Assembly (NCBI GenBank): GCA_002709385.1
Contig: PAQS01000040.1
Coordinates: 62,001-126,000, forward strand
DNA: 64,000 nt
Origin: Waddliaceae bacterium
Lineage (GTDB): Bacteria; Chlamydiota; Chlamydiia; Chlamydiales; GCA-2709385
Direction: 5' to 3'
The notes under the pieces were generated by a model, which searched no databases, was not told the DNA's origin, and saw only the letters and a program-made list of their open reading frames with translations. How positions within the stretch are numbered: position 1 is the first letter of the stretch; every line of letters starts with the position of its first letter. The position numbers were made by a program, and so were the translations under genes. Positions 63,563 through 63,648 of the stretch are shown here, piece after piece.

Positions 63563-63648
63563 TTTTCCCATACCCTTCCGATAGATTTAGTGGACACTTT
63601 GCAGATACCCCGTGCCGCTTTCGACTAGAAGGAGAAGGTATGGGAAAA
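63563..63648 (+). promoter_or_regulatory. Long inverted repeat that covers ribosome site and start codon of the last gene
   Basis: TTTTCCCATACC (63563-63574) is the exact reverse complement of GGTATGGGAAAA (63637-63648). The pairing continues three more bases, TTC with GAA, across one bulged C. The 3' arm includes the start ATG (63640-63642) and part of the purine-rich ribosome region (GAAGG). The loop of about 55 bases has no perfect repeat. In mRNA this would close the start site, as in an RNA thermometer or translational riboswitch. Confidence 0.55.

Follow-up and report, generated by a model that had tools for sequence, protein, structure and literature searches.

A start-hiding stem with two alternative arms predicted in the leader of a small chlamydial gene

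Occlusion of a start codon or ribosome-binding site by pairing in cis is a known type of translational control. RNA thermometers of the ROSE and fourU types pair the ribosome site and the start codon in stems that typically contain mismatches; in the translational attenuators of erm and cat genes, a locked start is preceded by a short leader-peptide frame that passes through the pairing arms; and in IS10-type fold-back inhibition, an inverted repeat in read-through transposase mRNA hides the start codon. In the T4 late genes e and soc and the homing endonuclease genes I-TevI and mobE, a leader segment pairs with the ribosome site on upstream transcripts, and RNA from an internal late promoter lacks the 5′ arm, so that its ribosome site is free (PMC2988022). 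Here we analyze a stretch of 64,000 nucleotides from a Waddliaceae bacterium of the Chlamydiota (GCA_002709385.1, contig PAQS01000040.1, positions 62,001-126,000 of the forward strand; in the following, the window), in which the start codon of a gene for a 163-residue protein and part of its Shine-Dalgarno sequence are predicted to be buried in the leader RNA.

Like the T4 hairpins, the predicted stem would hide the ribosome-binding site and start on RNA initiated upstream; unlike them, it has a proximal arm that closes the start without the distal arm, and its promoter-like match is at chance level. As in the erm and cat attenuators, the locked start follows a short frame, here of 22 codons, that traverses the pairing arms, but this frame has neither a Shine-Dalgarno sequence nor a known stalling inducer, is not conserved, and the gene is not a resistance gene. 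As in IS10, an inverted repeat in a putative read-through mRNA would hide the start codon, although the gene is neither a transposase gene nor part of a mobile element. In contrast to ROSE and fourU elements, the stem is, according to the folding model, too stable to melt at physiological temperature, and it has no Rfam match.

The stem and its two upstream arms

The following features, all on the plus strand and numbered within the window, make up the structure:

63563-63574, plus strand: distal 5′ arm of the start-hiding stem, TTTTCCCATACC (repeat search, fold)
63576-63579, plus strand: inner extension of the distal arm, TTCC, whose partner is GGAG at 63631-63634 in the Shine-Dalgarno sequence (fold)
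63589-63598, plus strand: AGTGGACAC, which pairs with the proximal-arm region (about 63612-63619) once the distal stem forms (full-length fold)
63609-63622, plus strand: proximal 5′ arm, CCCGTGCC-GC-TTTC, an alternative, mutually exclusive partner of 63631-63644 (truncation folds, local fold)
63629-63634, plus strand: Shine-Dalgarno sequence AAGGAG (sequence)
63637-63648, plus strand: 3′ arm with the start codon, GGTATGGGAAAA (repeat search, fold)
63640-64000, plus strand: open reading frame (ORF) for the 163-residue protein, predicted to have five helices, which runs about 131 bases beyond the window end (ORF list, orthologue alignment, model)

A first, sequence-only reading of this DNA had described a perfect 12-bp repeat around 62 bases. 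The repeat search finds it at exactly that place, with the distal and 3′ arms separated by a gap of 62 nt. The 15 pairs with one bulge that it also described are reproduced in the minimum-free-energy fold, where three pairs are added outward over a 2-nt bulge, together with four pairs inward. As a whole, 63540-63680 folds at -37.3 kcal/mol (z -2.7), and two of 200 shuffled sequences are equally stable. The ATG at 63640 lies entirely inside the 3′ arm, as proposed; the Shine-Dalgarno sequence, part of which had been assigned to the same arm, lies outside the 12 bp, yet is partly paired through the inner extension. That the stem hides the start codon is supported in all folding calculations, and for RNAs with 5′ ends at 63496-63560 the predicted folds leave the AUG unpaired with a probability of about 0.001.

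A second arm, absent from the earlier description, extends this confirmed observation. The proximal arm and the distal CCCATACC-C-TTCC have the same target, GGAG-AA-GGTATGGG (63631-63644), without a shift in register or in the position of the internal loop; the two differ at three paired positions, and pairing is retained through G-U at each. The start stays closed when the distal arm is deleted in silico. Likewise, in truncation folds with 5′ ends at 63576-63606, the proximal arm closes the start with an opening energy of still 7.2-8.5 kcal/mol, and solely 5′ ends after about 63612 leave it accessible. The full-length fold engages part of the proximal arm with 63589-63598 in an inner 8-pair hairpin. 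Both alternative folds hide the start, and no folded 'on' state was found. Among shuffled inner regions, about 1% contain a proximal-type arm of 8+4 pairs and about 1% reach equal closure.

Comparison with shuffled leaders and with the genome

As background, we used 813 ORF starts picked by a simple Shine-Dalgarno rule, so that some of them will be wrong; they cover 1.05 Mb of this genome, which totals 3.15 Mb (49 contigs). Among these starts, the AUG at 63640 ranks first, with an unpairing cost of 10.4 kcal/mol, whereas the starts average 1.7, the second-ranked one reaches 7.3 and the 99.9th percentile is at 7.9 kcal/mol. None of 4,000 shuffles of the upstream part matches this opening energy, while one in 3,000 dinucleotide-shuffled leaders has at least 12 perfect pairs; by energy, the case against chance is stronger than by repeat length. 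Among the 813 starts, helices of 12 bp and 13 bp occur at one start each, the latter in an AT-rich ATGATG sequence.

This 13-bp helix is formed by a perfect inverted repeat at an ORF start on contig C32 of the genome (23291-24898, minus strand, loci L128/L129). Its arms, AAATCATCATTTT and AAAATGATGATTT, occupy -76..-64 and -3..+9, a geometry near that at 63563-63648, and the repeat is AT-rich and has no Shine-Dalgarno sequence. Despite the similar placement, it is probably a product of chance.

The gene, its orthologues and its surroundings

The start at 63640 is backed by the alignment with two orthologues and by AAGGAG at a spacing of 5 nt. The earlier reading did not recognize the gene product, and this holds: the 163-residue protein has no Pfam or NCBIfam match and no significant sequence match in the PDB. 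The best of five AlphaFold2 (AF2) models shows five helices at a pLDDT (predicted local distance difference test) of 80, with 50-70 in the others, and Foldseek gives no significant match for the five-helix model.

Homologs are few. A search of 234 genomes of the phylum returned two true orthologues (37% and 29% identity) and two marginal matches inside long unrelated ORFs. No further genome of the same family was found among the relatives searched, IMG/VR yielded no homologue, the genome contig collection gave just one short match, to an unrelated archaeal protein, and the best 30 neighborhoods of the laccase gene pgeF, searched by synteny, held no additional homologue. The comparison of leaders therefore covers three sequences, this one and those of the two distant orthologues. 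These divergent leaders have only a short block in common, and TTCCGAT-GATTTA is shared with one orthologue. In the G014 orthologue, the ATG is covered at almost the same position by a helix of 14 pairs, six of them wobbles (-83..-70 / -9..+4). This helix is unusually long (P 0.006, or 0.0007 with fixed geometry) but of average energy (P 0.53), and closure of the start is not out of the ordinary. The G013 orthologue has no more than a local hairpin of eight pairs across the Shine-Dalgarno sequence, unremarkable relative to shuffles. The weak RNAalifold consensus of the three leaders corresponds to the proximal hairpin.

The local gene order is pgeF laccase (minus), doxX (plus), the 163-residue protein gene (plus), an ORF resembling leucine-rich repeat (LRR) proteins (minus) and rsmB (minus). 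Both orthologues likewise lie between laccase and rsmB, but doxX lies between the laccase gene and the 163-residue protein gene in this genome only. The strong stem is found where the co-directional doxX is upstream; the two orthologues, which have a divergent upstream neighbor, lack it. There is no recognisable terminator after doxX, and a search of both strands found none. Four further features lie upstream of the start:

63070-63495, plus strand: doxX, co-directional and upstream of the 163-residue protein gene (family match)
63531-63547, plus strand: 8-bp perfect dyad AACTAAGTGACTTAGTT in the gap 3′ of doxX (repeat search, genome count)
63558-63584, plus strand: weak sigma28-like promoter match, TTATGTTT-N11-TCCGATAG, 12/16 (pattern match, chance-level in the genome)
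63560-63628, plus strand: open frame of 22 codons, MFSHTLPIDLVDTLQIPRAAFD, which spans both 5′ arms and has its stop at the base before the Shine-Dalgarno sequence (sequence)

A frame that crosses the arms in a comparable way is present in 2.6% of shuffled leaders. The dyad is a possible operator. Its exact match is unique in the genome and near-matches do not exceed the control, and we rejected it as a shared operator, since it is not enriched across the genome.

Elsewhere in the window, a 527-residue ORF at 60658-62241 has no Pfam family at E<=1e-5, and just beyond the window an 858-residue protein (L002:8496-11072) consists mostly of MORN_2 repeats. We take the genome to be chlamydial, as it encodes the chlamydial outer-membrane protein family Chlam_OMP6, which occurs in none of 14 control genomes. 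The sequence AACTCAGTGACTCAGTG is repeated at contigs C12 (118-305), C17 (210-706, where copies are spaced 120-360 bases), C26 (102-118) and C31 (71224-71240), in several cases near contig ends, and these copies may represent an unassembled tandem repeat.

A lock on translation and its alternatives

We tentatively favor the reading that a small chlamydial gene, restricted to its lineage, has here a 5′ leader that silences translation in cis and is possibly opened by ribosome transit. On transcripts with a 5′ end before the distal arm, among them any that read through from doxX, the Shine-Dalgarno sequence and AUG would be paired with the distal arm (12+4 bp); without this arm, or with it occupied, the proximal arm (8+4 bp) would take the same segment, so that the default would be off for RNA starting upstream of about 63610. 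Since both arms must be removed together, the most economical opener would be a ribosome that crosses the leader, for instance along the 22-codon frame, and clears both at once; because the frame has no Shine-Dalgarno sequence of its own and is not conserved, we claim economy for this route and nothing more. A trans-acting RNA or protein might also open the lock. The pairing, its exceptional strength within the genome, the second arm and the lack of predicted melting are computed results, whereas we infer a regulatory role of the lock, the presence of its arms in the RNA in vivo and the manner of opening. The more specific version, a fail-safe translational-coupling switch in which two interchangeable arms lock one start that is opened only by a ribosome translating the short frame, appears unlikely.

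Several observations weigh against such a lock. At roughly 3e-4 per start, about one 12-bp repeat is expected by chance in a genome with a few thousand starts. The stem was chosen because it is conspicuous, and both the second arm and the leader frame emerged post hoc. The missing Shine-Dalgarno sequence and missing conservation of the leader frame belong here as well, and the arms may lie outside the transcript. The start-opening energies of the orthologues, 2.7 and 1.3 kcal/mol, are no better than those of shuffles, and RNAalifold gives the three leaders -2.3 kcal/mol with no favorable covariation term. The proposed covariation check was therefore not passed, with little power at such orthologue distance, and compensatory changes in relatives are largely lacking, as judged from two very distant orthologues only.

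A chance origin is nearly as likely as the translational lock. The stem would then be a lineage-specific inverted repeat of no regulatory role, which is weakly harmful to a little-used gene or lies outside its main transcript. The expected number of such repeats per genome, the missing conservation of the stem in the orthologues and the similarly placed AT-rich repeat of 13 bp on contig C32 all agree with this. They leave unexplained, however, an opening energy that is an outlier beyond what repeat length accounts for, a second arm to the same segment with a probability of about 1%, and the retention of a gene whose closed start should have been selected against. Overall, we consider some function roughly half again as probable as a chance, lineage-specific structure.

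Two further functional explanations are improbable. The first is insulation from read-through as in the T4 late and homing endonuclease genes, where upstream transcripts are locked and a promoter within the leader produces short, translatable mRNAs. The stem is present only where doxX is co-directional, the TTCCGAT-GATTTA block is common to one orthologue, and the weak sigma28-like match has exact spacing and would start RNA after the distal arm in a genome that encodes sigma28. Yet a T4-style internal promoter must start after the proximal arm, whereas RNA from the best promoter-like match would begin ahead of that arm, and mRNAs from 63576-63606 are still locked by the proximal arm. As such matches occur about once per 11 kb per strand, and a stricter pattern is found 53 times versus 52 in the reversed control, we rejected a sigma28 promoter between the arms.

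The second, about equally doubtful, is a riboswitch-like leader opened by a trans-acting RNA, protein or metabolite. Two mutually exclusive arms and an inner 8-pair hairpin permit alternative folds, but the start is hidden in both, no conserved core is apparent among the divergent orthologue leaders, and an Rfam search of the leader returned no family match and no thermometer family at E<=5.

An RNA thermometer that melts on warming, as the sequence-only reading had suggested, is very improbable. The start codon and part of the Shine-Dalgarno sequence are paired as in a thermometer, but the 12-bp stem is perfect and has none of the mismatches usual there. Between 25 °C and 48 °C, the predicted opening cost declines only from 11.8 to 9.1 kcal/mol, with 10.4 at 37 °C and 9.8 at 42 °C, so that no melting is predicted over the physiological range and heat is not the signal; among the papers searched, none was directly relevant to chlamydial RNA thermometers. 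Least probable of all is a small mobile element, for which the 12-bp inverted repeats, 86 bp end to end, might serve as termini, because the repeat extends into the coding region, an interior block is shared with an orthologue leader, the leader is single-copy at E<=0.001, and the arm sequence has one other copy in 3.15 Mb, as in the reversed control (one match), which also disposes of the transposable-element end named at the outset as a possible refutation.

If the structure is not functional, it shows the degree of start-codon closure that can be reached by chance in a retained gene. If it is functional, it would represent cis-acting translational control in a deep and little-studied chlamydial lineage, with an unusual redundancy of two arms that compete for one start, and it would provide a first handle on a small gene family without a known function.
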